Shown piece by piece: positions 4,609 through 61,670 of a stretch of 64,000 bases of DNA. The translations under genes and the position numbers were made by a program. Each line of letters begins with the position of its first letter. The stretch's first letter is position 1. The stretch lies in NCBI GenBank assembly GCA_946811695.1, contig OX328124.1:60094754-60158753 (forward strand). The letters are read 5' to 3'. Under the pieces are notes generated by a model, which saw only the letters and a list, made by a program, of their open reading frames with translations, was not told where the DNA came from and searched no databases. This DNA comes from Gonocerus acuteangulatus. Lineage: Eukaryota > Arthropoda > Insecta > Hemiptera > Coreidae.

Positions 4609-6269
4609 GTCCGACTCGCAGGAACTGCATCATCTTAGCGTGGTTCCTGTTCATATCCCTATTGTCGTTTGAAAAGCTTAGAATAGAAACAGATAATATT
4701 TTTCCCATGAAGATGAGTGATAAGTAAAGATGGAACGGTGGGGATTCGGCTAAAGAAACCTCAATAAGATTTTTGTTAAAAAGCTTCGTCGCTTTGTTTT
4801 AGCCTTCGTCAGCTAAAATGACAAGAAAAGCAGAAATTAATACAGAAACAAAAAAAAAAAAAAAGTTTATAATTGAGATAAGTAACAGAACTATAAATAC
4901 AATTAACTTATTATAAAAGAACAATTTCGTCTTAAATTCTTAGAATGAGTAGAATGAAAATCAATAGAAACATAACAGAAAAAGAAGAAAAAAAAGGCTA
5001 TTTTACTGAAGTTTATATAAGTAAAGGTGCTTATAGTAACATTAATTGATTTTACAAAGAAATAAGAAACTACATACCAATGAAAACTATAGTAGCTAAT
5101 AGTAAAATTAATTAATTTTACAAAGAAATAAGATACAACATACCAATGGAAATGCCGGGAGGCAGAGGAAGACCAAGGTTGACAGTTAAGTAACCATTGT
5201 GGATAATATTTTCCTCGGCCTTTGTTCAAAGGGTTTTATGGCTTTACCTGGTCGTGGTCCGCCAGAACCCTAGATAGTAATAATTCTACAAATAAAATCA
5301 ATTGAAAAATAAAATGAAATAAAACCAACAGCATGAAGGCAATTGAAAATATTCAAAAGACGTCATCGAATCTCTTTCTCTTGGCAAGCTATTTTTCTAA
5401 CAATGAATTGTTTTTCTTATTTTACCTAATCTGTTTTATTGTCAAATACATTACCCAACTAAAAGCAATTAAAAAAAAAAACAAGGAATAGAAACAGACA
5501 AAAAGAACTGTTCGAATACACGAAATCAATTACTTCAAAGTTTAAGCACTTATTTCTCCGACTGACATCAACTAATCAAAAATTGTTCCAGAATCTTTTT
5601 TGTAGAGAATTTATAAAGCTTTCAGATAATTTCTATCCACTTATCACGATTTCCCAACCGTGTTCAAGATATAAATGAAATTATACGAAGTTCCCAAAAC
5701 TTTTCATGTCTGTTCATAAAATATTTTATCCTAACCCTTCCTTAACTCCAAACGCAACCAAAAGTTTAACATGTTAGTTTTGATGAAATTGAAACATGCA
5801 AAAAATGTTTCAACTGAATTCCATGATTCTAAGTACCCAAACCAAAAACGATATTCAACAACTATTTTTCCAATTTTCTCGAAAACGGTTAAAGCGATCG
5901 TCTTGAAAATGGTTTCATTAGTTTTTCTTGGCCAAGAAGCCTATAAAACGAGTACTTACAAGCATATGAACTCAAAAACGTAAGCGTTACGATTTTTTTT
6001 GCGCAAATTTCGCCCCAAACGCCATCTTCCAGTGGGCGGATTTTGCTGGTTAACGAACTTGACCTTTCAAATTGGACGACGGATTTTTGTACCAAATTTC
6101 ATCAAAATCGGACCATTAGGGAAGCCAGAAATGAGCGAACAGACAAATATATATATATATATTATTATTCTTGTGGATGACCCAAAATATTTCTTAATGC
6201 GTTTCGTTCTTTTAGGCTTAGGGTCGGGAAAAAGTAGTACTTCCTTGTGTCACACCACTTTATTTTTTC

Positions 6270-6316
6270 TGCCCTACATGTTTCGTGCTTAATTCATTCG
6301 CACCTCATCAGGGGCA
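6270..6316 (-). ncRNA. Hammerhead-like ribozyme core, mirror copy in left arm
   Basis: This is the reverse-complement twin of the core at 6427-6473, with the same stems and triplet, so the locus presents one ribozyme-like motif on each strand. Confidence 0.6.
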
Positions 6317-6426
6317 CTTCTTGCTAAGAAGTCCTCTCGTCTCCTCATGTATCTTCTACGGAGGCAGTATTACCCCTGCCTCCGTAGAAGATACATGAGG
6401 AGACGAGAGGACTTCTTAGCAAGAAG

Positions 6427-6473
6427 TGCCCCTGATGAGGTGCGAATGAATTAAGCACGAAACATGTAGGGCA
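6427..6473 (+). ncRNA. Hammerhead-like ribozyme core in PLE tail (right arm)
   Basis: The core CTGATGA (6432-6438) is followed by one extra G, then stem II GTGC...GCAC (6440-6443/6455-6458), then GAAA (6459-6462), then ACATGTA with a two-pair stem III, and GGGC (6469-6472). The GGGC pairs with GCCC at 6428-6431 to form stem I, and T6427/A6473 extends it. The predicted cleavage triplet is GTA. PLE 3' ends are known to carry minimal hammerheads with short stem III. The extra base between CUGAUGA and stem II departs from the canonical fold, so activity is uncertain. Confidence 0.6.
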
Positions 6474-6702
6474 GAAAAAATAAAGTGGTGTGACACAAGG
6501 AAGTACTACTTTTTCCCGACCCTAAGCCTAAAAGAACGAAACGCATTAAGTAATATATATATACAAATTTGAACCCCCGTTATTTTCGGTCTCTAGGGGT
6601 TCTGAAGCGCGAAATTTTCTAGTCGGCACTTCCAGATTGTTTCATTGTATCAACCTTATAAGCGGGGTTCCTCCCTATGAAGGGAGGGAGGAACCGCGCT
6701 AA

Positions 6703-8264
6703 AAATTAATAAATAGATAAAAACTGCTCAAAATAGGGAATACCAAAAACAATTCTAAAGAACGAAATCAACACCAGTACAGTAATCTATATATTCATAG
6801 GGCATCTTCGAATTCCAAGATGCCGTTGAAACAAAATATTGTTTCTATTTATACGTATCCTGTTTTATTGACTAATACATTTGACTACTATAAGCAATCA
6901 CAAAAATAACGAGCAGTGAAAAACACTGTAGGAAACACACAAAAAGATTCGTTCAAATAAACGAAATTACCTATCTTTTAAGCACTTATTTCTCCAAATA
7001 TGACCATCCCATCGGAAATGTCTTCAAAACATTTTTTGTAGAGAATTTAGTAACCTTTCGAATGGTAATCTTTTGCTTGCCAAGATTCCGAACCGTTTAC
7101 GTGATATTAATGAAAATATAAGAAGTTCCCAAAACTTTTCATGACTAAAAATGAAATATTTTATTTTAATCCTTCCTTTACTCCAAACGTAACCAAATTT
7201 TCAACATATTAGTTTTGATAAAACTCAAACATGCAGAAAATGTTTCAACTGAATCCCATGATTCTAAGTACCAAAATCAAAGACAAAAAGAACACTTCGA
7301 ATAAGCGGAATCAATTACTTTAAAGCTTTAAGCTCTTATTTCTCCGATTGACATCGCCTAATCAAAACTTTCATTAGAACCTTTTATGTAGAACATTTAA
7401 TAAGCTTTCTAATGGTATTCTTCCGTTTCCCAAAATTCTCAACAGTTTTCGAGATATTAATGAAAGTTCCCAAAATTTATATTATTTCTAGCAACAGAAA
7501 ATTGGCCTCATTTTTCATATCCTGTTTTACACACAAAATTTTCGCAACATAAGAAATTACAAAAATAAAAAGCAATAAAAAACGAAAGGAAAGAGACAAA
7601 AATTACAACAAGAACGACAAAAACCCGTTCATAAGAACAAAACAGACGTATTTGAAGTTTTAAGCACTTATTTCTCCGATTGACATAACCTAATCAAAAA
7701 TAGTTACAGAATCTTTTTTGTAGAACATTTAGTAAGCTTTCAAATAGTTTCTATCCACTTACCACGATTTCCCAACCGTGTTCGAGATATTAATCAAAGT
7801 ATACGAACTTCCCAAAACTTTTCATGTCTGTTCATAAAATATTTTATTCTAACCCTTCCTTAACTCCAAACGTAACAAAACTTTCAACATATTAGTTTTA
7901 ATAAAAGTAGAACATGCAGATAAAGTTTCAACTGAATCCCGTAATTCTAAGTACCCAAACCAAAAACGGTATTCAAAAACTATTTTTCCAATTTTCTCGA
8001 AAACGGTTAAAGCGATCGCCTTCAAAATGGTTTCATTCGTTTTCCTAGCCCAGGAATCATATAAAACGAGTACTTACAAGCTTATGAACTCAAAAACGTA
8101 AGCGTTACGATTTTTTTTGCGCGAATTTCGCCCCAAACGCCATCTTCCAGTAGGCGGATTTTGCTGGTTAACGAACTTGACCTTTCAAATTGGACGAAGG
8201 ATTTTTGTACCAAATTTCATCAAAATCGGACCATTCGTCTTCTATCTAGAGAGCGAACAGACAA

Positions 8265-8343
<79 letters not shown>

Positions 8344-8479
8344 AATTTGAACCACCGTTATTTTCGGTCTCTAGGGGTTCTGAAACGCGAAATTTTCTAG
8401 TCGGCACTTCCGGATTGTTTCATTGTATCAACCCTATAAGCGGGGTTCCTCCCTATGGGGGAGGGAGGAACCGCGCTAA
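6703..8479 (-). mobile_element. Dispersed family R, copy 2, in tandem with copy 1
   Basis: It shares all R blocks with copy 1 in the same order, including the (AT)n tract at 8263-8341 and the terminal hairpin GGTTCCTCCCT/AGGGAGGAACC at about 8446-8470. The left boundary abuts the 5' hairpin of copy 1, and the GTCCGACTCGCAGG terminus is missing, so it is a truncated tandem unit. Some interior blocks (7280-7470, 7640-7800) are repeated within it, suggesting internal duplication. Confidence 0.6.
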
Positions 8480-8775
8480 AACGGTATTCAAAAACTACTT
8501 TTCCAATTTTCCCGAAAACGGTTAAAGCTATCGCCTCGAAAATGGTTTCATTCGTTTTCCTATCCCAAGAAGCCTATAAAACGAGTACTTACAAGCTTAT
8601 GAACTCAAAAACGTAAGCGTTACGATTTTTTTTGCGCGAATTTCGCCCTAAACGCCATCTTCCAGTGGGCGGATTCTGCTGGTTAACGAACTTGACCTTT
8701 TAAATTGGACGACGGATTTTTGTACCAAATTTCATCCCAATCGGACCATTAGGGAAGCCAGAAATGAGCGAACAG

Positions 8776-8840
<65 letters not shown>

Positions 8841-8973
8841 TTTGAACCACCGTTATTTTCGGTCTCTAGGGGTTCTGGAACTCGAAATTTCCTTGTCGGC
8901 ACTTCCGGATTGTTTCATTGTATCAACCCTATAAGCGGGATTCCTCCCTATGGGGGAGGGAGGAACCGCGCTA
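8480..8973 (-). mobile_element. Dispersed family R, copy 3, short 5' portion
   Basis: It starts directly after the hairpin of copy 2 at ACGGTATTCAAAAACTACTT and contains only the 5' third of R, with (AT)n at 8779-8836 and the terminal hairpin at about 8938-8970. It is the third unit of a tandem array in one orientation. Confidence 0.6.
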
Positions 8974-9779
8974 AAATGTTTTCTTCAAAGTATCTGAGGA
9001 TTGAATAAATTAACCACACATAACTCTCCTGACATATTTTTTGCAGTTATTTTCAGATTTATTTATTTTATTTCTTGAATTTATTTGCCCGAACCGAACA
9101 GGGAATGATTTTCCAATAAAAAAAAATTACTTATTAACCAATAAAAATGAACTTTTTATACGATTATGTGACAATCTCACGAGGGAAATAAATTTCTTTA
9201 AGTGACAAACTAAAAGTTTATTTATTTCCGGAATAAAAACATTGTAAAAAAAACTCAGCAGAAAGCACGTATATTAAATGATACACCCTGGAGGCCAGTT
9301 CTACAATGCCAAAGATGCAGAAATAATTTGCTATAACAGCGATTTGCTCTGGCGGCAGTTATTGATTGCCAAGGCTGTTTTCGCTTACTACAATTAGAAT
9401 AAATCTACTCTTTATTTTACTATTATAGTAATGCTGTTTATTTTATGAATTGAGCAATAACTATATATATTCTTATAATATAATATGCAATACAAAATGT
9501 TCACAGAAGGCGAAAAAAAAATGCTCACTGAAGGAACGTCGTTAAGAGGAAAAACGACTTGGGCTGACTGAACCTTTAAGCTTGATGGGTATGAGGCCCT
9601 TATTCTGGTTCTCTCACACAAAAATAACTGATTTCTTTCAGCATGACTTTGATTATAAAGGTATTTATCTGTTAAAACTTAATTGCATTTTTTATATAAT
9701 TCCGAATATTTTGATATTGATCAGATGGCGAAGAACTAAGACTTTATAATGCACTTTTCCTAGTCTCCTGGATTATTGT

Positions 9780-9986: not shown

Positions 9987-10670
9987 TGTTAACACGATAG
10001 CGGCCAGAGTTTTTGTTTTTTCGTCACGAAACTTGGTTTATAGCATTCAATTAGCAAACGATTGAACGAATTCTTTAACCACCAAAGTCGGTCCACCGGA
10101 AGGGGGGGTTTACCCCGAACTCAAAACACTAATTTGACCATGTCAGCCGTCATATTTGTTATATTTCAACGAAACTTGGTATTCGTAGTGGTAATATAGA
10201 GTGAAAAGTGAGATATAAAAATCAACTAAATCGGTTCATTAGGAGGGGGGTTTACTCCGGACCCACAATACCAATTCGCCACTACCAGCCGTGATTTTTG
10301 GTATATTTCGACGAGACTCGGTATTCGTAGTGGTAATCCACAGGTAACTATGTGTTGTAAAAATAAACTAAATCGGTTCATTAGGAGGGGGGGGGGTTTA
10401 CTCCGGACCCACAATACCAATTCGCCTCTACCAGCCGTGATTTTTGGTATATTTCGACGAGACTCGGTATTCGTAGTGGTAATCTACAGGTAAATATGTG
10501 TTGTAAAAATAAACTAAATCGGTTCATTAGGAGGGGGGGTTTACTCCGGACCCAAATTACTAATATACTCATACCGGTCGTAATTTCTGCTGTATTGTAA
10601 CGAAAATTATATATATATTATAAAAATGAGCTGAATCGGTCAATCGGAAAGGGGGGGTTTGCTTTGTAAT
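9780..10670. repeat. Second hairpin family (S) with (AT)n and about 4.5 tandem 145-bp units
   Basis: A hairpin CTTTCCTCCGAAGGAAAG lies at about 9828-9845, then (AT)n at 9941-9983, then tandem units marked by GGGGTTTACTCCGGACC. The markers start near 10109, 10251, 10397 and 10540, spacing 142-146 bp, with a last partial unit to 10670. Each unit contains TTCGACGAGACTCGG and ACTAAATCGGTTCATTAGG. The same hairpin with flanking TAGCTA/TTGAGGTA recurs inverted at 44440-44495, so this is a dispersed element rather than a locus-specific satellite. Confidence 0.7.
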
Positions 10671-13027: not shown

Positions 13028-13218
13028 AGCCAACGGCCATAGCCACGTTGAATGCACCGGTTCCCGTAGATCACCGAAGTAAACCAAAGTTGGGCGTGGT
13101 CAGTACCCAAATGGGTGACCGACCACGTGCGGTTGGCATTATAAAAGGTCGGTAACCTATAGATAGCCCGGCTCTAATGTCCAAATAGTTGATGCGCTGT
13201 TAAAAACGAAAAAAAAAA
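13028..13218 (+). mobile_element. 5S rRNA-derived SINE (SINE3-like), complete copy with target-site duplication
   Basis: The head (13029-13133) is clearly 5S rRNA: GCCAACGGCCATAGCCACGT, GAATGCACCGGTT, GATCACCGAAGT, GTGGTCAGTAC, GGGTGACCG and closing GGTTGGC. A segment of helix IV/loop E (CCTGGGAAC in normal 5S) is missing, as it is in the second copy. A non-5S body follows: GGTAACCTATAGATAGCCCG, then TTGATGCGCTGTTAAAAAC and an A-rich tail. An 11-bp perfect duplication AGAGTGGATAC flanks it (13017-13027 and 13219-13229), which proves LINE-style insertion. The retained 5S internal promoter blocks could drive Pol III transcription. Confidence 0.9.
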
Positions 13219-15785: not shown

Positions 15786-16150
15786 GCCAACGGTCATAGC
15801 CACGTTGAATGCACCGGTTCCCGTTGATTACCGAAGTTAAGCAACGTTGGGCATGGACAGTACCTGAAAGAGTAACCGACCATGTGCTGTTGGCATTACA
15901 AAAAAGGCGGCAACCTGTAGATATTCCGGCGTTAATAGGCCAATTGTTGATACTTTTTTTTTCCTTAACACCTCACCGACATCTGGGCCATTAGTGCCGA
16001 CATCCATGGTGCAGCGAGGAATTTTCTCAATGAGCCGTGGAATGAGAAAATTCCTGGCGCGCCGGTGGAACTCGAACCCACCATCTCTGGCATGAGAATC
16101 TAAGGCGTTAGCTACTGGACCACGGGGAGCCCCTTGATACGCTGTTATAC
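15786..16150 (+). mobile_element. 5S rRNA-derived SINE, second copy, split by a tRNA-derived SINE
   Basis: The 5S-like head is at 15786-15893, with the same missing helix IV segment (AACCGACCATGTGCTGTTGGC). The body follows: GGCAACCTGTAGATATTCCG and GGCGTTAATAGGCCAATTGT. At TTGATAC (15947-15953) it is interrupted by a minus-oriented tRNA SINE (15954-16133), after which TTGATAC repeats and the 5S-SINE tail resumes (GCTGTTATACACAAAA). The shared deletion and shared tail show both copies belong to one SINE family rather than independent 5S pseudogenes. Confidence 0.85.
15954..16133 (-). mobile_element. tRNA-derived SINE, family B, nested in the 5S SINE
   Basis: On the minus strand it begins GGGGCTCCCCGTGGTCCAGT (A box region) and has a B box GGTGGGTTCGAGTTCC-like segment at about 16064-16085. 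The body is CAGGAATTTTCTC and its inverted partner GAGAAAATTCCTCG, and it ends in a short A tail (T run at 15954-15962 on plus). TTGATAC is duplicated on both sides. It was inserted into the 3' part of the 5S SINE, so it is younger. Confidence 0.85.
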
Positions 16151-20764: not shown

Positions 20765-20850
20765 CACTTTTTCTTGTTTGTTTTTCTGGCAGGGGGTCGA
20801 TAAAGCAGTACACTCTTTGTTCACATTAACTGCTTTATTTGTTATGTTTC

Positions 20851-20890
20851 GCCCGACATCTTTCGTGCCTTTTCGCACCTCTTCAGGGGC
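20851..20890 (-). ncRNA. Hammerhead-like core in PLE 3' UTR
   Basis: On minus: GCCC (stem I), CTGAAGA, extra G, stem II GTGC/GCAC around GAAAAG, GAAA, then GATGTC and GGGC closing stem I. The predicted cleavage triplet is GTC. The layout is the same as the palindrome at 6193-6550, but stem III is weaker (G opposite G). Confidence 0.6.
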
Positions 20891-21160
20891 TTTCCTATGT
20901 AACAATATTTTTTGTAAATCCTAAACTTTAAATTGCTTACACTAATACACATATCCTGTCCCTAAATAATTTACATTTCAACATATAATATTTCAACTTA
21001 ATCTTAATCCTACCTTATCAAGAAGTCCTCTCGTCATGTTGTCTTGCTTGAGTCAGGCGTAGTACTGAAAAGTGATCTGTGGTAATTAATATGGCCGTTT
21101 GTATCGATTCTTTAGCTGTTTTCATGGTATCGATTATTGGTGAAATTTGTTTTGTAAGGT

Positions 21161-22236
<1,076 letters not shown>

Positions 22237-22395: not shown

Positions 22396-22530
22396 TTAGC
22401 GCGGTTACTCCCTATCTCCATAGGGAGAACCCGCTTATGAGGTTGACCTCATGACGCAATGCGGAAGTGCCGACTAGAAACTTTCACGTTTCAGACCCTA
22501 AAGATCACGAAAATATAGGTGGCCCAAATT

Positions 22531-22585
<55 letters not shown>

Positions 22586-23808
22586 GCTTGTCTGTTCACG
22601 CTCTAGCATGCTCAAAAATGGTCCGATTTTAACGAAATTTGGTAACGAAAATCTCTCTTCTAATTTGAAAGGACAAGTTCGTTAACCAGCAGAATCCGCC
22701 CACTAGCAGATAGTGTTTGGGGCGAAATTCGCGCAAAAAAATCGTAACGCTTACGTTTTTGAGTTTATATGTTTGCAGGTACTTGTTTTATACGTTTCTT
22801 GACATAAGAAAAGGAATGAAACCATTTTTAAGGCGATAACTGTAACCGTTCCTGAGAAAAGTGGAATCAATGTTTTTGTAAGTCATTATATTTTTGTGAG
22901 TACTTTGAATCGCGTGATTCAATTGAAATATTTTCTACAACTTGGAAATTAATCCCAACTAAGATGTTTAAATTTTGGTTATATTTGGAGTTAAGGAAGT
23001 ATGCGAAAAAAATTATTTTATTAATAGACATGAAAAGTTTTCGGATCTTCATACATTTTTCGTAAATATTTCGATAACGGTTGGGAAATCGTGCTAAGTG
23101 GAAGGTGACCATTCGAATGCTTACTAAATTCTCTACAAAAATGGTTCTGAAGCAATATTCGATGGAGCAACGTCAATCAGAGATATAAGCTCTTAAATCT
23201 TAAAAAGTGTTGGTTTTGTTGTTTTGAAAGGGTTTTTCTCTTTGTTTATCTCACTTTTTAAATGGTTGTTTCGTGTTTTAAATTGCATTTATCAGTAAAA
23301 TTAGTATAGGAGTAAAATAAGCTAAGAAACGGTGAAAGGTATTGGTAATAATAAGTCTGGAGTGGCTGTGGTAATCAAGATGGCTGTGGCTAATCATGAT
23401 GACGTAGTTTGTTTTGAATTCTCCTGTCTTATAACCTTCCTCATAGCCTCCAACTGAAGTTATCGTTATTTCTTATTTTATAGAAAGATTTAACCCACGA
23501 AAGAGTGGAATTTTATTCGCCATGAAGCACATATTTACAGTTGGTTATAACAGTAAAACGAATTTGCTAATAAAACAAGATACTTAAAATGACAACGAAT
23601 TTTTGGTTGTTTATAATAGAGCCTTTTCAGCAGTAGTCAAAGAGTAAGTACGTTTTCAGTACATAATTGTATTGACTTATACAGATTAAGAATTATCCGC
23701 TTCTGTGTAAGTTGGCTACTGTCAGTTTCCTGTGATTTGTGATGCTAATCTATTCCATCTCTTCGATATGTAACCGCGCTAAGATGACGCAGTTCCTGCG
23801 AGTCGGAC
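22396..23808 (+). mobile_element. Family R, near-complete plus-strand copy
   Basis: It starts TTAGCGCGGTTACTCCCTAT with the hairpin partner ATAGGGAGAACCCGC, has (AT)n at 22533-22585, then the R blocks GTTCGTTAACCAGCAGAATC and AATCGTAACGCTTACGTTTT, and ends ACCGCGCTAAGATGACGCAG...GCGAGTCGGAC. At about 1.41 kb it is one of the cleanest full-length copies and defines both termini. It encodes nothing. Confidence 0.65.
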
Positions 23809-30793: not shown

Positions 30794-31600
30794 TTGGCAA
30801 AAATAAGTAAGAGAAGCAAATTGTTTTCAATGAAAATTCACGATTTCTACATTAGAAAAATTACATATTTAATGAAGGACAATCAAAAAGAAAAGGTGAA
30901 ACGCAGCTCTTTTAAAAGTAGTGACATAAATTCGAAAACAATGTATTCATTTGACTATTATCCAACAATTTCAAATTCAAACCCTCCGTAAGGATATTGG
31001 GAAAATTGCCAGGAAATATCGCATTAGACAAAAAATTATTTAATTTGAATTAAATATAAATTGACGGATTTAGAACCCATATATAATGTATAAGATGTAA
31101 AATGTAGTTCGCAATAAAAAATTCATTGGAGAGTCGTTGCAGTTATTTACGAGTAGGATAATGTAAAAAACGTGCAATACAAGTAAATCTAATCACAAAT
31201 TTGAATTTGGCAAGGTAAAGATTACAGACAAAGAAAATTATATGATAAAACGCAAAATATACATTAAATATAGAAATAAAGTAGTTAATAAAAACTGAAA
31301 TAAAACATCTAAACAAAATATTTTCCATGTAATTAAATATAATTAATGATTACCATAGTGATATCAAAGTTTTTATTTTATTCATTTGGCTATATTTCTT
31401 TTGAGTATCGATGTTAGGCGCCATTGTTCTTAGCTTCATTCGCGACGTGGTCCCAGTTAGTGGATCAAATGCCTAATAGAGTGGTAAATATTTTTCATTT
31501 CAGCTCCTGATGAGACACTGTGGTGCAAAATTAGTTGAGCTCATATAAACAAATCCTGTTTATCAATTCACCATTTTATTTGTTAAACTTTCGTCTAATA
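30794..31600 (+). pseudogene. Old Penelope-like element, same lineage as 20762-22120
   Basis: The plus-strand translation in shifting frames matches the intact copy. FDYYPTISN then LRKDIGKIARKY (about 30945-31025) corresponds to FHYHPSIAN...CKDVGKISWKY. FIGESLQLF (about 31110) corresponds to the YIGES block. HKFEFGKVKITDKEN and NIFHVIKYN correspond to the C-terminus. There are many stops and frameshifts. The tail keeps CTGATGA at 31507-31513 with a degraded AAAA in place of GAAA. It lies inside the candidate host intron. Confidence 0.7.
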
Positions 31601-35974: not shown

Positions 35975-36312
35975 GTCCCGTAACAGGCCACGAGGGCCCT
36001 GAGGGGCAGATACTATAGAGGTATCTGATTCTTGACCATACGGCACACTAGGGAGATAGTATGGTCTGTACTATGCTCCGGCCGCCTGATTTTCCCCTTG
36101 GCTGCTTCGACTGCTAGAGTCATTAGCACCAACCAAGGTTCCCATTATTAAATTAATTAAAGGCTGGGTTGGCCTAGGGACGGTCAGGGAGGCCGAATCC
36201 TACCCATGAACGAAGACACTAGAAGAAAAAATCTTTAGTGCTTGCTCGGGATTTGAACTCAGGCCTCCAGCTTATTAGTCCAGTGCTCTACCACTGAGCT
36301 AACCTCGCCCCC
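35904..36312 (-). mobile_element. tRNA-Ile-like SINE with poly(T) 3' tail, 14-bp target duplication
   Basis: The minus strand begins GGGGGCGAGGTTAGCTCAGT, with anticodon-loop-like CTAATAA, and B box GAGTTCAAATCCCGAGC; this is clearly tRNA-derived and reads like tRNA-Ile(AAT). A body of about 340 bp follows, containing GTCCCTAGGCCAACCCAGCC and CTCGTGGCCTGTTACGGGAC, and it ends CTGAT then T(67) in the element's own sense. TATATAGACATATA is perfectly duplicated (35890-35903, 36313-36326). The homopolymer is T, not A, at the 3' side, which is unusual for a LINE-mobilised SINE. Confidence 0.9.
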
Positions 36313-40977: not shown

Positions 40978-41536
40978 CAGGGTGTCCCAAAATTAATGGT
41001 CATCCGTTGGCCAGATGATTCTCCAATGCGAGATCGGAAAAAATAACCCCCATATTAACCCCCGCACAATTGACCTTGAAATGTTATTCAAGGTCAAATT
41101 TTTTTATTGCATATTTCGAATCTACTAGTCATGAGGAAGAAAAAAGTCATAGGCGCCATGGGTCAGAAATGACTCCTTATGCTCAAAATGACCATTAACA
41201 GCGTATACGTGGGCCATACCATTCCAATCGACTAATGGTGGCTGATTTTGATCATTTCTTTTTTTACATTTTTTAGTAGCCACCATTTGTCGATTGGAAT
41301 GGTATGGCCCACGTATACGCTGTTAATGGTCATTCTGACCATAAGGAGTCATTTCTGACCTTTGGTGCCGTTGACTTTTTTCTTCCTCTTGACTCGTAGA
41401 TTCAAAATATACAATAAAAAAATTTGACCTTGAATAACATTTCAAGGTCAATTTTGCGGGGGTTAATATGGGGGTTATTTTTTCCGATTGGAGAATATTC
41501 TGGCCAATGGATGACCATTATTTTTGGGACACCCTG
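40978..41536. mobile_element. Tc1/mariner-type foldback MITE, arms about 260 bp
   Basis: Ends CAGGGTGTCCCAAAATTAAT and ATTTTTGGGACACCCTG are inverted, flanked by TA on both sides (40976-40977, 41537-41538). Left arm 40978-41243 and right arm 41278-41536 pair almost throughout, sharing TGGTATGGCCCACGTATACG and CGCTGTTAATGGTCATT, leaving a 34-bp loop. No coding sequence. The TA duplication and GGGACACCCTG terminus fit IS630-Tc1-mariner. Confidence 0.9.
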
Positions 41537-51839: not shown

Positions 51840-52330
51840 TGACGTTTCGCTAGTCATACTGCCAGCTTCCTCAGGGCTTAGTCTGAGAATGAGGATGTTC
51901 TTCTAGTTCTTCTGTATAAATACCTCTCTTTGTATTCATCCGCGGGCGTAGTCTGCTCTTCCATGTCCCTGATTGGTTGGTCCCGGTCTTGCTTGATTCT
52001 GGTTGGTGGTTTCCATCTGGATCATTGATTGGCTGAATTTCGTTTTTTCTTTTTTCTCTAGGTTCAATTACCGGATGCCATAATTTGCTGAGCTTGTACC
52101 TATCTTCTTTGTAGAATTTTTCCGGGCATCGTACTATTTCTATCGCTTCCCTTATGATCCGTTCTTGATAATTTTCTATTTTCGCAAGAATGCTTACTTG
52201 GTCGAACTGGATAGCATCAGTGTTATAAAAATGTTCTGCTACCGCCGATTTTTTCAATGTTGCCATTCTTAACCGTCTTCATATGTTCTGTTATTCTAGT
52301 GCACACCAATCTTCCTGTCTGTCCAAATTA
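51840..52330 (-). mobile_element. Penelope-like element 3' remnant, second lineage
   Basis: On minus, from 52330: GQTGR and CTRITEHMKTVKNGN (end of a GIY-YIG domain), then the C-terminal region at 51871-52266, then tail CCCTGAGGAAGCTGGCAGTA and CTAGCGAAACGTCAGC with a hammerhead-like CTGAGGA-stem-GAAACGTC layout. One frameshift near 52266. Confidence 0.75.
51871..52266 (-). pseudogene. C-terminal region of a PLE protein after GIY-YIG
   Basis: It has 131 codons. KSAVAEHFYNTDAIQFDQVS, then ILAKIENYQERIIREAIEIV and CPEKFYKEDRYKLSKLWHPV follow the well-known post-GIY-YIG pattern in insect PLEs (S.AEH....H...F....IL......R.IREAIEI...P...N..DG..LS..W.P). The upstream half of the endonuclease is in a different frame and then lost. 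It differs from the intact lineage at 20762-22120. Confidence 0.75.
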
Positions 52331-53920
52331 AATTAAATTATCTTTGGGGTTATTTATTATAACCCCAGGAGGAGGTCTCCAGGTGACTATAAGGGGATAT
52401 TTGAAAGAACCTGATCACAATGGATGTTTGCTTTAGGTCAGTAGATCTGAAACTAGGGGCTGAGCAGGATGCCACTCTAGAAGTGGAAGATCCAAGATAA
52501 GGAATAGAAACTGGGCTCATTCTAATATTTTTAGTTCACTGAATACCGTTTCTAGAAAATACTTTACGTCCTCGGGTTTCTAAATATGCTTTGGCGGTAG
52601 CTTTGCCCAACATGTACAGTTCTAGTACGGCTCGAAAGATGAAGGATTCAATATCGTTAGACAGAGCTTATTTAGTGATTATATTTATTTTAGTCTGCCT
52701 AGAAGGACTTAAGGTTAAGACTCAAGTGTTAAATATGAAAATTTTTAAGTTATGCAATAGAAAATTAAGTACCGATAACCGGAGTGAATGTAAAATTCTA
52801 TATAGAATATTAATCTTGAAAGATTGCAAGTGTCACATGCTATATTGTTGTTGTTTTAACCTTCCAGTAGGGGCGCCCCTTTTTGGTACATCCGTAGAGG
52901 CGCTGCATCTCAGAGGTGCAAACCCTATTTCGCGCGGAAAAATGTGCCTCAGCAACGTGATTACATTGCTATTTGAGAGAAATAGTAGAAATCTGCAGAC
53001 TTGATAACTAAAACAACATTTTTGTTTTTTGCGGGGGACATAAGAAACCATCGTTTTCGATTAAATGAAATCTTATCATATTCGATATGAAATAAAATAT
53101 TAATATAAACTTGAATAATCAATCTATGTATAGGAATTTTAAAGTCTAAACCCGGCCATACCTAAAAACACTCTGCTGTAGTTAGTATAAGTGCCAAATT
53201 TCTGATTCTTTAAAAAAAAGGATCATGTTTCAGGACTACACTATTACTAAGTACTGTTAGTGGAATTACAATACAGTTTATGTTAAAATATATAACATTT
53301 GTAATATAACAGGTTATCCTATAGACCTGAAACATGTCTAAATATACTGGGTGGTCCCGCAGGAAATCGCCATACTTGAGGAGTGTGTACTCCGACTAAA
53401 GTGTAGTTGAATGCCACCAAAGAAAAATTTTTACTTGCATTATTTCCCTAGATATAGTTAGTGATTTTTTGTCTGTTGTGAGTTTTTGACCATTTTTGCG
53501 CTATTAACTTATCATGAAATAATGGTTTGTGAAATGTCCACGAAGTAAACGAGATCTTATAGGAAATTTAATGCAGATTTCGAAAATGTCATCAGAATTT
53601 AATTTACCCTTGGCGTAAACGACAAATAGCGCAAAAATGGTCAAAAACTAGCGTTTAGAAAAAAACAAAAATCGGATAGGAAATCACTCGAATATTGGCG
53701 CTGTACCTAGCAGTTGAAGACCAATTTTTACTCCTCTCATTTATTCTACGGCGGAATAAACTCACCCACATACTCATAGATGATAACATAGTAAGATAGA
53801 GAACGAAAAGTGTAATTACATAAGGGAAATGATGATTATGAAGTAAAACAGCCTACCTGATAACTTTGTAAATACAAATTGTTGCAATATCCAGACGACT
53901 TGCTTTACTTATTCGAAATA
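52331..53920. other. Gene-free stretch; inverted repeat at 53485-53652
   Basis: GTTTTTGACCATTTTTGCGC at 53488-53507 recurs inverted at 53629-53648 with longer weak similarity around it. ATACTGGGTGGTCCCGCAGG at 53347 looks like a TA-flanked transposon end without a found partner. A 137-codon plus reading at 52591-53004 has no recognisable domain. Confidence 0.4.
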
Positions 53921-57510: not shown

Positions 57511-57764
57511 ACGTTAATGATTTAAACGATATTTCATTCACAACCCAGAATTCAGGCATATATCACTGCTGCAGCGGTGGCGTTTTCCTAACCACAAATG
57601 GTACGTGATGCTTATTCCACTTATTGCTTTCAGCTAACAAACAAGCATCATGCACCACCTGAGGAAGCCGGCTGTGATCAATGCCGGACTGTAGGAGGAG
57701 ACTGATATAGACCTTAGATATTAGATAAAAATGCAATCTATCAGATATCTTTATTTTTGCTGTT

Positions 57765-57901
57765 TTAGCGCGGTTATTCCCTCCCTCCATAGGGAGCAAG
57801 CCCGCTTATGACGTCGACCTCATGACGCAATCCGGAAGTGCCGACAAGATAATTTTATGTTTTAGATCCCATAGATCGAGAATATAACGGTGGTTCAAAT
57901 T

Positions 57902-57954
<53 letters not shown>

Positions 57955-59411
57955 TCTACAAAAATTTAGTACTAAAATCTTTTATCTAATTTGAAAGGTC
58001 AAGTTCGTTAACCAGCAGGATCGGTCCACCGGAAGATGCTTTTTGGAGCGATATTCGCGCGAAAAAATCGTAACTTTTACGTTTTCGAGTTCATATGCTC
58101 GCAGATACTCGTTTTATAGGTTTATTACCATAGAAAAACGAATGAAACCATTTTTAAAGCGATACCTGTAACCGTTTTCGAGAAACATTGAGACGCCTAC
58201 TTTTCCAAACTAATTTTCAGTTTGGGTATTCAGAAACGATTAATTCAGCAAAAAGGTGTTCCAGGCGTTTGATAATCATATAATCTATAATAGGTAAATT
58301 TTGGTTCCGTTCGGAGTTAAAGAAGTACTAGAAAAAAATATTTCATTAACAGGCATGACAAATTTTCGGAATTTCGTATATTTTCTAAAATATCTCGAAA
58401 ACGGTAGGAAATCGTGGTAAGTAGAACGTAACCATTCGAAAGCTCACTGAATTCTCTACATAAAAGGTTCTGATGTAATTTTTGATGGGGTGATGTCAAT
58501 CGGAGAAATAAGGACTTGAAAAATCGCAATTGTTAGTTTTGCTTTTTTTCACCGGGGGTTTGTATGTATTTTCCTAACGATTTAAATGGTTGTAACTTAT
58601 TTTAATTGCATTTAACAATAAAACGAGTATTTGACTAAAACAAGGTAAGAAAATGTGAAACGTTGTTGTAGTGTTTCCAAGAGCGAACGTGCAGTCGTCA
58701 TGATATTGTGAGTTTCCTGTTGTGGCGCCTTAAATGTATTTTAACTTACTACATCTGACAAATCACTTTGGCAAGCTACGAGAAACATTCTGTCCTATAA
58801 ATCCTCCCGTCATTCCCTTCGCCGAGAAAATGGTTCCTGGGCCAAAACTGACGAAGAAATATCCCATACCTTTTGCCTACACCTCACCAAAGTCTTTACT
58901 CCTCACCATGATATCAATGATCCTGACCATACACTCCTTGTCTGAAGTCACCTGGACACTCCTCTTCAACTATCACTCCCACCAAAAGCCTTTAATCCTA
59001 AAGAAGTCCTGTATGCTATCTAACATCTTCCTCCAAAAAAAGCCACTGGATATGACCTCATCACTCCCAGAATCCTTAATAAACTCCCGAAAAAACCCAT
59101 TCTCTTCCTAACTTACATACATAATGCCGTACTCAGAACAACATATTTCCCCATCCTCTGAAAAGCCTATTCATCAACCTTCGTCCTATCGTCCTATATC
59201 ACTCTTTCCAATAATGGGTAAAATCCTTGAAAAACTCCTTCTCAAACGCCTTTATCCTTTACTGGAAATATGTTTATTTTCTCTTCGAGATTTTATTTTA
59301 AATTTTTCACGAAGGATAAAACCTCACCAATAACTGCGACTATTCCTTTACTAATTGCACTAGAGACAAGAACGGAAGCGCGCTAAGATGACGCATTCCT
59401 GCGAGTCGGAC
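57765..59411 (+). mobile_element. Family R, full-length copy carrying a LINE fragment
   Basis: 5' end TTAGCGCGGTTATTCCCTCC with hairpin partner ATAGGGAGCAAGCCCGC, CATGACGCAATCCGGAAGTG, (AT)n at 57904-57950, all R blocks, LINE insert 58740-59310, and 3' end GGAAGCGCGCTAAGATGACG then GCGAGTCGGAC. Termini are identical in kind to the 22396-23808 copy. Confidence 0.65.
58740..59310 (+). pseudogene. LINE reverse transcriptase fragment inside R (Jockey-like)
   Basis: Across frames: HLPPKKATGYDLITPRILNK, KPILFLTYIHNAVLRTTYFP, then HQPSSYRPISLFPIMGKILE and KLLLKRLYPLLE. This is the fingers/palm start of Jockey-type RT (PKKATGYD.ITP, then SYRPISLLP..GKI.EK). Sequence before 58890 (FTPHHDINDPDH) also fits. 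Several frameshifts. The active-site YADD block is not included. It has no LINE 3' end, so it was probably captured or left by deletion rather than inserted by target-primed retrotransposition. Confidence 0.8.
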
Positions 59412-60382: not shown

Positions 60383-61670
60383 CATAAATTAATGTGATAT
60401 TGAATATACATAAAAATGGCATATGGTTATAAAAACTACATCAAATTTCACTTTAGATACATCATACAGTTCAACATGATTTTCTTAGTTTTTTTTTTTA
60501 TTTAATTATTATAATGGCGTGTCAACCCTTAAGTTCACTAACGCCATTCCTGTGTGTGGTAATTTTCATTATAATTCTGTAATAAGTATCAACATGTATA
60601 CATTCTGATTAAATTGCTATCAATAATAGTTCTATTCGCAGATTTTATTAACTCAAACGACAAACGAGAAATGCTCAATTGCTTGTAAAAAATAAAAAAT
60701 AAAACAAAACAAAATAGAAAATAAAAAAACATAATAATAAATGTAATAAAATAATAACAATAAAAATCAAATGAAAAAAGAATCATGTTAATAAAATAAT
60801 ATATAAAAATTGTATATAAATGAAACAAACAAACGAGCATTTCGGTTCTTTATGTTCTGTCTAAATTTTCTTAGTGTAGTTACTATCTTGCGTTTTAGTA
60901 AAATCGGCACTTTTAACAGCTACTTTCTTTTTTAAAGTATTGTTTTTATCATAGTTACACTAACGTAAGTACTAATATTATTATGTAAGCCATTCCCCGC
61001 GCAATAGTCCTATAAGCATAAAAATAAATAAATCAGAATTCACATGAATAATGTAAATTAAAAACTTCTGTTTTACATTACAAAGTATTATTAGCAACAA
61101 AACATTATTTAATTAGATAAATCTCGAAAGCAAGACAGCTCCAGTTGAAACATGGAATCCTCTTATTTATTTAAATATTTTATAAATTGCGTATAATGTT
61201 ATAATAAATTACCACCAGCCGGTAAAAAATCAATCTTCATACTCCCGGATAAAATCTTCTTCTTTTTCTCTTTGTTCTACCGGAACAGGTCTGTGCCTGC
61301 CTGGAATAACCTTGGTGGGGCCGAGTAGAAAAATTCTGAACCCTCCGTTTTTTATCTACGTTCCAACTTTTTTTTCCTCTCATTCTTCCTTTCGTTTTTT
61401 GTCTTGTCCAAGAGTAACCTTTAAGGTTGAATGATATTTGGAAGGGTTGAAGGCCCAAGAGAGTCTGACGATAAGATTCTTGCTTGAAATGGCGTCCTTG
61501 AGTGAGGCTCAATGGCCTGTTCGTTACTACTCCGTGTACAGTTAGGCGTCGTCTGCCACTCCGAGGACTTAACCACTGGGTTAAAACATACAATTATAAA
61601 AAAAAAACAAGAAAACTTAGCCTAAACCAAAAAAATAAATTTTCTGTTGAGCATAACCTTCTTCTTCCAA
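60383..61670. other. Gene-poor stretch
   Basis: A possible LINE 3' tail at 60985-61035 (CCCGCGCAATAGTCCTATAA then GCATAAAAATAAATAAATC). A 118-codon arginine/lysine-rich minus reading at 61237-61593 overlaps a plus reading and matches nothing I know. Confidence 0.35.

Follow-up and report, generated by a model that had tools for sequence, protein, structure and literature searches.

Genome-wide anatomy of body-less head-to-head pairs in Gonocerus acuteangulatus supports coupled two-strand initiation by Penelope-like elements

Introduction

Penelope-like elements (PLEs) are regarded as a separate, third class among the retroelements of eukaryotes, with an insertion cycle that is not yet settled. 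In the available part of the work on the endonuclease-containing Penelope elements of Adineta vaga, inverted head-to-head pLTRs are given as a typical PLE structure, the tail is termed optional, the pLTR includes the first codons and self-priming on antisense RNA is the favoured origin (PMC3846280). Inverted pLTRs and short 3' extensions are also mentioned in the accessible portion of PMC8969392, and minimal hammerheads in PLEs are described in that of PMC7761336.

Regarding the reaction itself, both target strands are, according to the accessible text of PMC11167929, cut and extended in vitro by a PLE protein, with two neighbouring internal start sites, one at either limit of the tail; no difference in start site was seen between the strands, unprocessed (uncleaved) RNA was the dominant substrate, and the further steps of insertion are still to be validated. 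Inverted pLTRs, the optional tail and, in vitro, two start sites with extension of both strands are thus already known from these sources.

Here we describe a body-less head-to-head pair found in a stretch of 64,000 nt of the Gonocerus acuteangulatus genome (contig OX328124.1; hereafter the window) and its relatives in the same genome. The structure is of a known kind, and its genome-wide anatomy strongly supports coupled two-strand initiation by PLEs.

Results

A palindromic insertion in a dispersed repeat

The two arms of the palindrome are exact reverse complements (175/175) around the spacer TATTACCC; their complementarity stops at 6193 and 6550, leaving unpaired flanks, and the arms face outwards, each with its sense strand directed from the centre towards the flank (Table 1). 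The palindrome lies between 5531-6144 and 6560-6703, the two halves of one dispersed repeat, and in four further copies of this repeat in the 64-kb window the halves are separated by (TA)n alone. Therefore, the palindrome was inserted into one such repeat and is bordered by its two different, matching halves. The inserted stretch spans 6162-6550 and thus exceeds the perfect 175-bp palindrome of an earlier note on this DNA, which was itself confirmed, by 31 nt (6162-6192) on the left, without counterpart on the right. This 31-nt tail is missing from the four empty repeat copies, and its best other match in the window is 21/31. The target repeat with its central (TA)n is present in five copies in the window (5531-9000; 22400-23200 and 57760-58520, both on the minus strand).

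Table 1. Positions of the insertion, its flanks and the related PLE copy in the window.
Feature	Position	Strand	Basis
Left target flank, (TA)n of dispersed repeat	6137..6161	.	empty-copy comparison
31-nt tail, outer end of left arm (proposed start site B)	6162..6192	-	absent from empty repeats; equivalent position in other genome copies; diverged form at the 3' end of PLEs with an ORF
Left arm, pLTR (leader) copy, tailed	6193..6367	-	exact reverse complement of 6376-6550
Hammerhead-like motif, left arm, stem I to stem I	6270..6316	-	descriptor scan, core at 6311
CAG microhomology at arm junction	6365..6367	.	alignment to 21-kb PLE; same overlap in L018, L032, L045
Spacer TATTACCC, first bases of right-arm leader copy	6368..6375	+	alignment to 21-kb PLE, 8/11 bases
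Right arm, pLTR (leader) copy, untailed, ends at proposed start site A	6376..6550	+	exact reverse complement of left arm; comparison with genome copies
Hammerhead-like motif, right arm, stem I to stem I	6427..6473	+	descriptor scan, core at 6432
Right target flank, (TA)n of same dispersed repeat as left flank	6551..6571	.	empty-copy comparison
Hammerhead-like motif of 21-kb PLE copy, approximate bounds	20847..20891	-	descriptor scan, core at 20886
119-nt GT-AG intron kept in 3' end of 21-kb PLE copy	20895..21013	-	family comparison
Frame of another, 5'-truncated PLE copy; C-terminal part matches GIY-YIG nuclease domain	21161..22228	-	Pfam PF01541

An RNA spanning the locus is predicted to fold into a 175-bp hairpin with a computed energy of -349 kcal/mol, so that the long duplex expected earlier for a read-through RNA follows from the sequence. 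Elsewhere in the window, 41033-41488 holds a large inverted repeat (211-nt arms, 94% complementary, 34-nt gap) that has outer ends similar to GGGTGTCCCAAAA and resembles a MITE or a fold-back element. Two 5S rRNA-like copies (13029-13138 and 15786-15895) and a weak tRNA match (36239-36308, minus strand) are also present.

Relationship to PLEs

The 3' end of the PLE copy located around 21 kb in the window (the 21-kb PLE) aligns with 6365-6550, spacer included, in agreement with the PLE origin proposed in the earlier note. Over the spacer region 8/11 bases match, a level reached by 45 of the 63989 11-mers of the window. As read from this alignment, the spacer and the CAG are assigned to the right arm, the left arm being joined through the 3-nt CAG overlap.

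The Pfam GIY-YIG model PF01541 matched a 121-aa piece of the 21161..22228 frame with 23.0 bits, above the cut-off of 22.6, and 320 aa of the same frame with 19.4 bits, below it. An 820-aa frame from a relative in the genome gave 18.3 bits with the GIY-YIG model, also below the cut-off, and no match when compared directly with the RT model; its protein search returned 104 homologues, most of them listed with PF00078 (RT) and some with PF01541, an earlier protein search with a shorter frame having yielded no homologue. Thus, a frame combining RT and GIY-YIG is found in relatives, and the insert itself carries no frame. A single-sequence structure model of the nuclease domain was discarded as unusable (mean pLDDT 41.5).

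Other PLE remains were seen in the window. At 51871-52340 (minus strand) lies a second, different PLE 3' end, in which remains of a GIY-YIG-like frame, recognized by eye and without any Pfam match, are followed by a hammerhead-like CTGAGGA..GAAACGTC. A strongly decayed PLE remnant at 31050-31560 (plus strand) contains a broken CTGATGA motif at 31503 and a weak tblastn match to the 21-kb frame (31113-31259, E 0.025). A tandem repeat of approximately 142-146 nt occupies 10098-10603, and similar sequence adjoins PLE ends in L068 and L077.

The hammerhead-like motif

A hammerhead descriptor (CTGANGA, stem II, GAA, minimal stem III, UH and a stem I of at least 4 bp) matched in full at only three sites of the window, one on each strand of the palindrome, as previously noticed, and one at the 3' end of the 21-kb PLE (Table 1), with 0 matches in 100 first-order Markov windows. 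At E values up to 10 the window matched none of the Rfam hammerhead families, and the ribozyme assignment rests therefore on the motif. Several other candidates were rejected: the Rfam matches at relaxed thresholds were mostly to microRNA-precursor models, as any long hairpin may give, and included no hammerhead; a loose hammerhead match at 61465 is probably due to chance, since 18 such matches appeared in 200 simulated windows; and pattern scans of viral and prokaryote collections gave either no match or matches without further likeness, judged as chance.

Among the arms mapped genome-wide (see below), core and stem I were intact in 74 of the 83 that span the motif. Changes amounted to 7/1454 in the core vs. 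179/11885 in the remainder, 112 of these 179 falling at four subfamily sites, and the sequences give no clear sign of selection on the ribozyme core. None of 98 arms begins at q100-110, where hammerhead cleavage would place the RNA end, which lends no support to a role of the ribozyme and agrees with the dominance of unprocessed RNA reported in the accessible text of PMC11167929.

Head-to-head pairs are the common arrangement among the scored regions

The genome from which the window comes (1.1 Gb, 135 contigs) was searched with the right arm as a tail-blind query. The best 40 of 1455 candidate regions were scored (73 matches), and all of them, window included, were mapped with a 217-nt query in which q1-186 correspond to 6365-6550 of the window and q187-217 to the left tail. 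Head-to-head pairs, the inverted pLTR structure characteristic of PLEs, were found in 36/40 regions, the other four showing one mapped arm, although in one of these (L042) a stub of a second arm is seen by eye. A second search with the tailed left arm, which favours tailed arms, added 12 loci among the best 40 of 1528 scored candidates: nine pairs, two single-arm loci and L068, left out of the pair count for having a stub of 19 nt. As the best-scoring ones of 1455 and 1528, respectively, the scored candidates are probably the youngest. The search for other inverted pairs proposed in the earlier note thus yielded 45 pairs among the best-scoring candidates, window included, and in 45/45 the orientation was head to head; the view that two PLE ends joined in this manner are not a normal PLE product finds no support in this count or in the typical PLE structure as presented in PMC3846280. 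Direct tandems, the other classical arrangement of PLEs, also exist in this genome, as two PLE coding ends at G000:C1:163185930-163190248 (plus strand) exemplify.

Insertion sites were AT-rich in 51/52 loci, as is usual for GIY-YIG Penelope-like elements, with (TA)4 or longer within 30 nt on at least one side in 51/52 and on both sides in 41/52. Target site duplications are illegible in (TA)n, and a stretch of approximately 11 nt, TAGTAAAGAAT, is seen by eye in the single-arm locus L051. A PLE frame was joined to 0/52 inserts, and one locus has a diverged PLE piece approximately 700 nt away.

The exact identity of the arms, taken in the earlier note as a sign of a very young event, is not unique to the window, as five other loci sharing at least 130 nt between their arms are also identical. 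The two arms of one locus agreed at the four subfamily sites in 138/140 comparisons, where approximately 49 disagreements were expected, and when all variants of 35 pairs were considered, 32/75 were shared between arms compared to a mean of 11 and a maximum of 21 in 2000 shuffles. Therefore, each insertion used one RNA, or RNAs from one source, twice, and later gene conversion between the arms could add to their agreement.

One tail per pair

Exactly one tail was present in 34/36 pairs of the tail-blind search, with none in two (L017 and L026) and two tails in 0, whereas the search with the tailed arm gave one tail in 8/9 pairs and two tails in the remaining one (L057). Overall, 42/45 body-less pairs have one tail, compared to 22.5 expected if tails were independent (P = 4e-10). 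Pairs with coding sequence behaved likewise. From 126 matches of a protein search, 13 neighbouring head-to-head pairs of PLE coding ends were chosen by eye, and the 11 that were readable had exactly one tail in every case (11/11), eight on the plus arm and three on the minus arm. All pairs combined, one tail was found in 53/56 (P = 4e-13 at p = 0.5), and in 45/47 (P = 8e-12) when the tail-biased search was left out.

Most untailed arms stop at or beside GCATTAA(G), and six stop elsewhere (q53, 162, 165, 177, 177 and 181). The tail recurs in diverged form at the 3' ends of ORF-bearing PLE copies and, in L075, an ATG located one base past the tail opens a frame of at least 150 codons, so the tail is itself PLE sequence; its 31 nt fit the optional tail of 30-40 bp of GIY-YIG Penelope-like elements.

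The arms as probable copies of a spliced 5' leader

The starts of the arms are clustered, with 47/98 at q1-3 and 66/98 at q1-8. The bases before q1 are not common, with at most 4/6 matching the upstream sequence of related leaders, and the accumulation at q1-3 reflects therefore real ends instead of an effect of the query end. The common arm start CAGTATTACC resembles TCAGT, the initiator of insects, and related families read TCAGTACTACG and TCAGTATTACG at this same point. From this we infer that the common arm start corresponds to the 5' end of the RNA, which in the window would fall close to the A of CAGTATTACC, at 6366.

In the family of the 21-kb PLE, the 3' end was visible in seven of the eight loci examined, with no such end seen in the eighth (L071), and a 119-nt GT-AG segment was kept in 7/7. 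In a second family, 6/6 3' ends align over nearly their whole length, GT-AG segment included. This intron is exactly missing, with AAG joined to GAAAG, from three head-to-head arms (both arms of L072 and one of L074); a diverged arm of L070 is also contiguous at the splice point, as is the arm family of the window. L075 was dropped as evidence of splicing, its match beginning only 10 nt before the splice point.

As the 3' ends of related families keep an intron that the arms lack, and as approximately half of the arms share one end, the "PLE 3' ends" of the earlier note are better read as copies of the pLTR or 5' leader. On this small sample of three arms, the template was a spliced sense RNA, because splice sites of the GT-AG type on the sense strand would be of no use to an antisense transcript. 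In the subfamily to which the window belongs, a spliced template is probable by homology to the related family. No unspliced ORF-bearing parent of this subfamily appeared among the scored candidates, where it might be missed because intron-bearing copies score lower in the arm search.

Junctions between arms

The 45 junctions comprise 18 with overlap, two blunt and 25 with a filler of 1-61 nt. When filler-free junctions were considered, an overlap of at least 3 nt was found in 8/20, vs. 3.7% of random joins, and by their sequence the junctions look as if two 3' ends had been joined through microhomology. Among the 42 pairs with one tail there are 37 junction classes; the shorter arm is the tailed one in 14 of these pairs and the untailed one in 13, with both about equal in 15. 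Four loci (L018, L032, L045 and the window) share the CAG junction between q1 and q12; at the centre, the tailed arm is shorter in L045 and the window and longer in L018 and L032.

Discussion

The stretch 6162-6550 is very probably a body-less Penelope-like insertion built of two joined cDNAs, one per target strand. According to this model, the PLE protein complex would cut both strands of the (TA)n tract, and each cut 3' end would prime reverse transcription inside the 5' leader of the spliced sense RNA, one strand starting at site A (the end of the untailed arm) and the opposite one at site B, 31 nt further 3' (the end of the tail). Each cDNA would then extend to or near the 5' end of the RNA, and both cDNA ends would be joined by microhomology-type end joining, in the window via CAG/CTG, with an enzyme that we infer to be polymerase theta-like. 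The A and B starts would be coupled, for example by two protomers acting on one RNA, as suggested by the presence of one A and one B in nearly every insertion. A strand starting at the downstream pLTR of a tandem RNA would lead to a copy with a PLE body, and both strands starting in the leader to a body-less pair. Two separate cDNAs joined end to end thus replace the template switching or dimer joining formerly proposed for the locus.

We lean, with some reserve, towards extending this to PLE integration as a whole, which would be a coupled asymmetric two-strand reaction in which, for almost all insertions, one complex and one spliced sense RNA use site A on one strand and site B on the other, with end-to-end joining of the cDNAs, so that the classical inverted pLTRs, the optional tail and the swarms of body-less pairs would all be its products.

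The same two-strand mechanism may have used a different template, that is, a dedicated short non-autonomous RNA transcribed from such inserts, as in a PLE-driven SINE-like family, in place of the leader of a full-length PLE mRNA. This is possible, though we hold it for the less probable choice: the lack of PLE frames joined to the 52 inserts, the existence of subfamilies with diagnostic changes and the absence of an ORF-bearing parent of the window subfamily among the scored candidates are all in its favour, but parents with intron and ORF score lower and could be missed, and related families with frames carry the same arms beside coding sequence.

Self-priming on an antisense PLE transcript, whose 3' end would fold back and prime its own copy to give a head-to-head repeat with a palindromic centre, is the origin proposed for the Adineta vaga elements in the accessible text of PMC3846280, and the centre of the window could indeed fold back through CAG/CTG. 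Nevertheless, head-to-head arms lack exactly a GT-AG intron that an antisense RNA could not splice out, which speaks against antisense self-priming (PMC3846280) for this genome as far as its sequences can tell, and the arms are often unequal in length and the tail may be on either of them, making this origin very unlikely.

Just as improbable is snap-back synthesis or hairpin repair, by which one cDNA or one inserted arm would later be copied into an inverted duplicate. The identity of the window arms and the recurrence of the q1/q12 CAG junction in four loci are what a favoured fold-back would give, but the copy would carry the tail state of its template, whereas 42/45 pairs differ in tail between their arms; in addition, two of the four CAG loci have a tailed arm that is shorter at the centre and the other two a tailed arm that is longer there, and strongly unequal arms, such as those of L046 and L035, do not fit.

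Spreading of the palindrome as a unit, like a fold-back element or a MITE, would explain the many dispersed copies with similar ends and is even less probable, as arm lengths vary independently, with unequal arms and 37 junction classes in 42 pairs in place of fixed terminal inverted repeats copied as a unit. Perfect palindromes are a known type of assembly or library artefact, an origin with a negligible probability here given that both flanks continue one repeat copy and that 44 further pairs have their own flanks and mostly unequal arms.

Thus, two cDNAs primed by the two target strands on a spliced sense RNA remain the preferred reading, and the pairs offer a rare view of insertion by elements whose class is little understood. 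The one-tail rule, a simple signature that can be counted in genomic sequence, links the pair of start sites observed in vitro with the two strands of the target. As for the template, the choice between sense and antisense RNA is decided for this genome by the spliced arms. The genome contains many near-perfect inverted pairs, which would yield long hairpin RNA if transcribed. In the open-access literature, where most subscription papers are missing, no report was found that treats one tail per pair as a rule, describes spliced inverted arms or presents body-less pairs as common.

In the twin priming of LINEs, both target strands prime cDNA to give an inverted insert in which different parts of the RNA are joined. 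The pairs described here share with it the priming of cDNA by both target strands and the inverted insert, and differ in that both arms are the same part of the RNA, with two fixed start sites. As in the metazoan retrozymes, judging from the available part of PMC7761336, the inserts are short, non-coding, carry a type I hammerhead-like motif and are perhaps moved by PLEs. Retrozymes, however, consist of direct repeats in tandem with hammerhead cleavage sites as their limits (PMC7761336), unlike these inverted pairs, in which 0/98 arms start at the cleavage site.

The likeness to Poseidon of Anolis carolinensis (PAc), as far as the accessible text of PMC11167929 describes it, includes the cutting and extension of both strands, the two internal starts bounding the tail, the AT-rich target and uncleaved RNA as main substrate. 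The distance from stem II to the arm end is 111 nt here; in PAc, whose ORF begins at stem II, the starts lie 111-118 nt into that ORF (PMC11167929). The PAc sites are inside the ORF, and no difference between strands was seen in vitro (PMC11167929), whereas the genomic pairs described here use one site per strand.

Finally, the endonuclease-containing Penelope elements of Adineta vaga, in the part of their description available (PMC3846280), share with these pairs the inverted head-to-head pLTRs, the palindromes at the junctions, a tail of 31 bp carried by one inverted pLTR, a microhomology junction and the existence of solo pLTRs. In contrast to that account (PMC3846280), in G. acuteangulatus one tail per pair is nearly universal, body-less pairs are common, splicing is seen in related arms, and in L075 the tail precedes the start of the frame.
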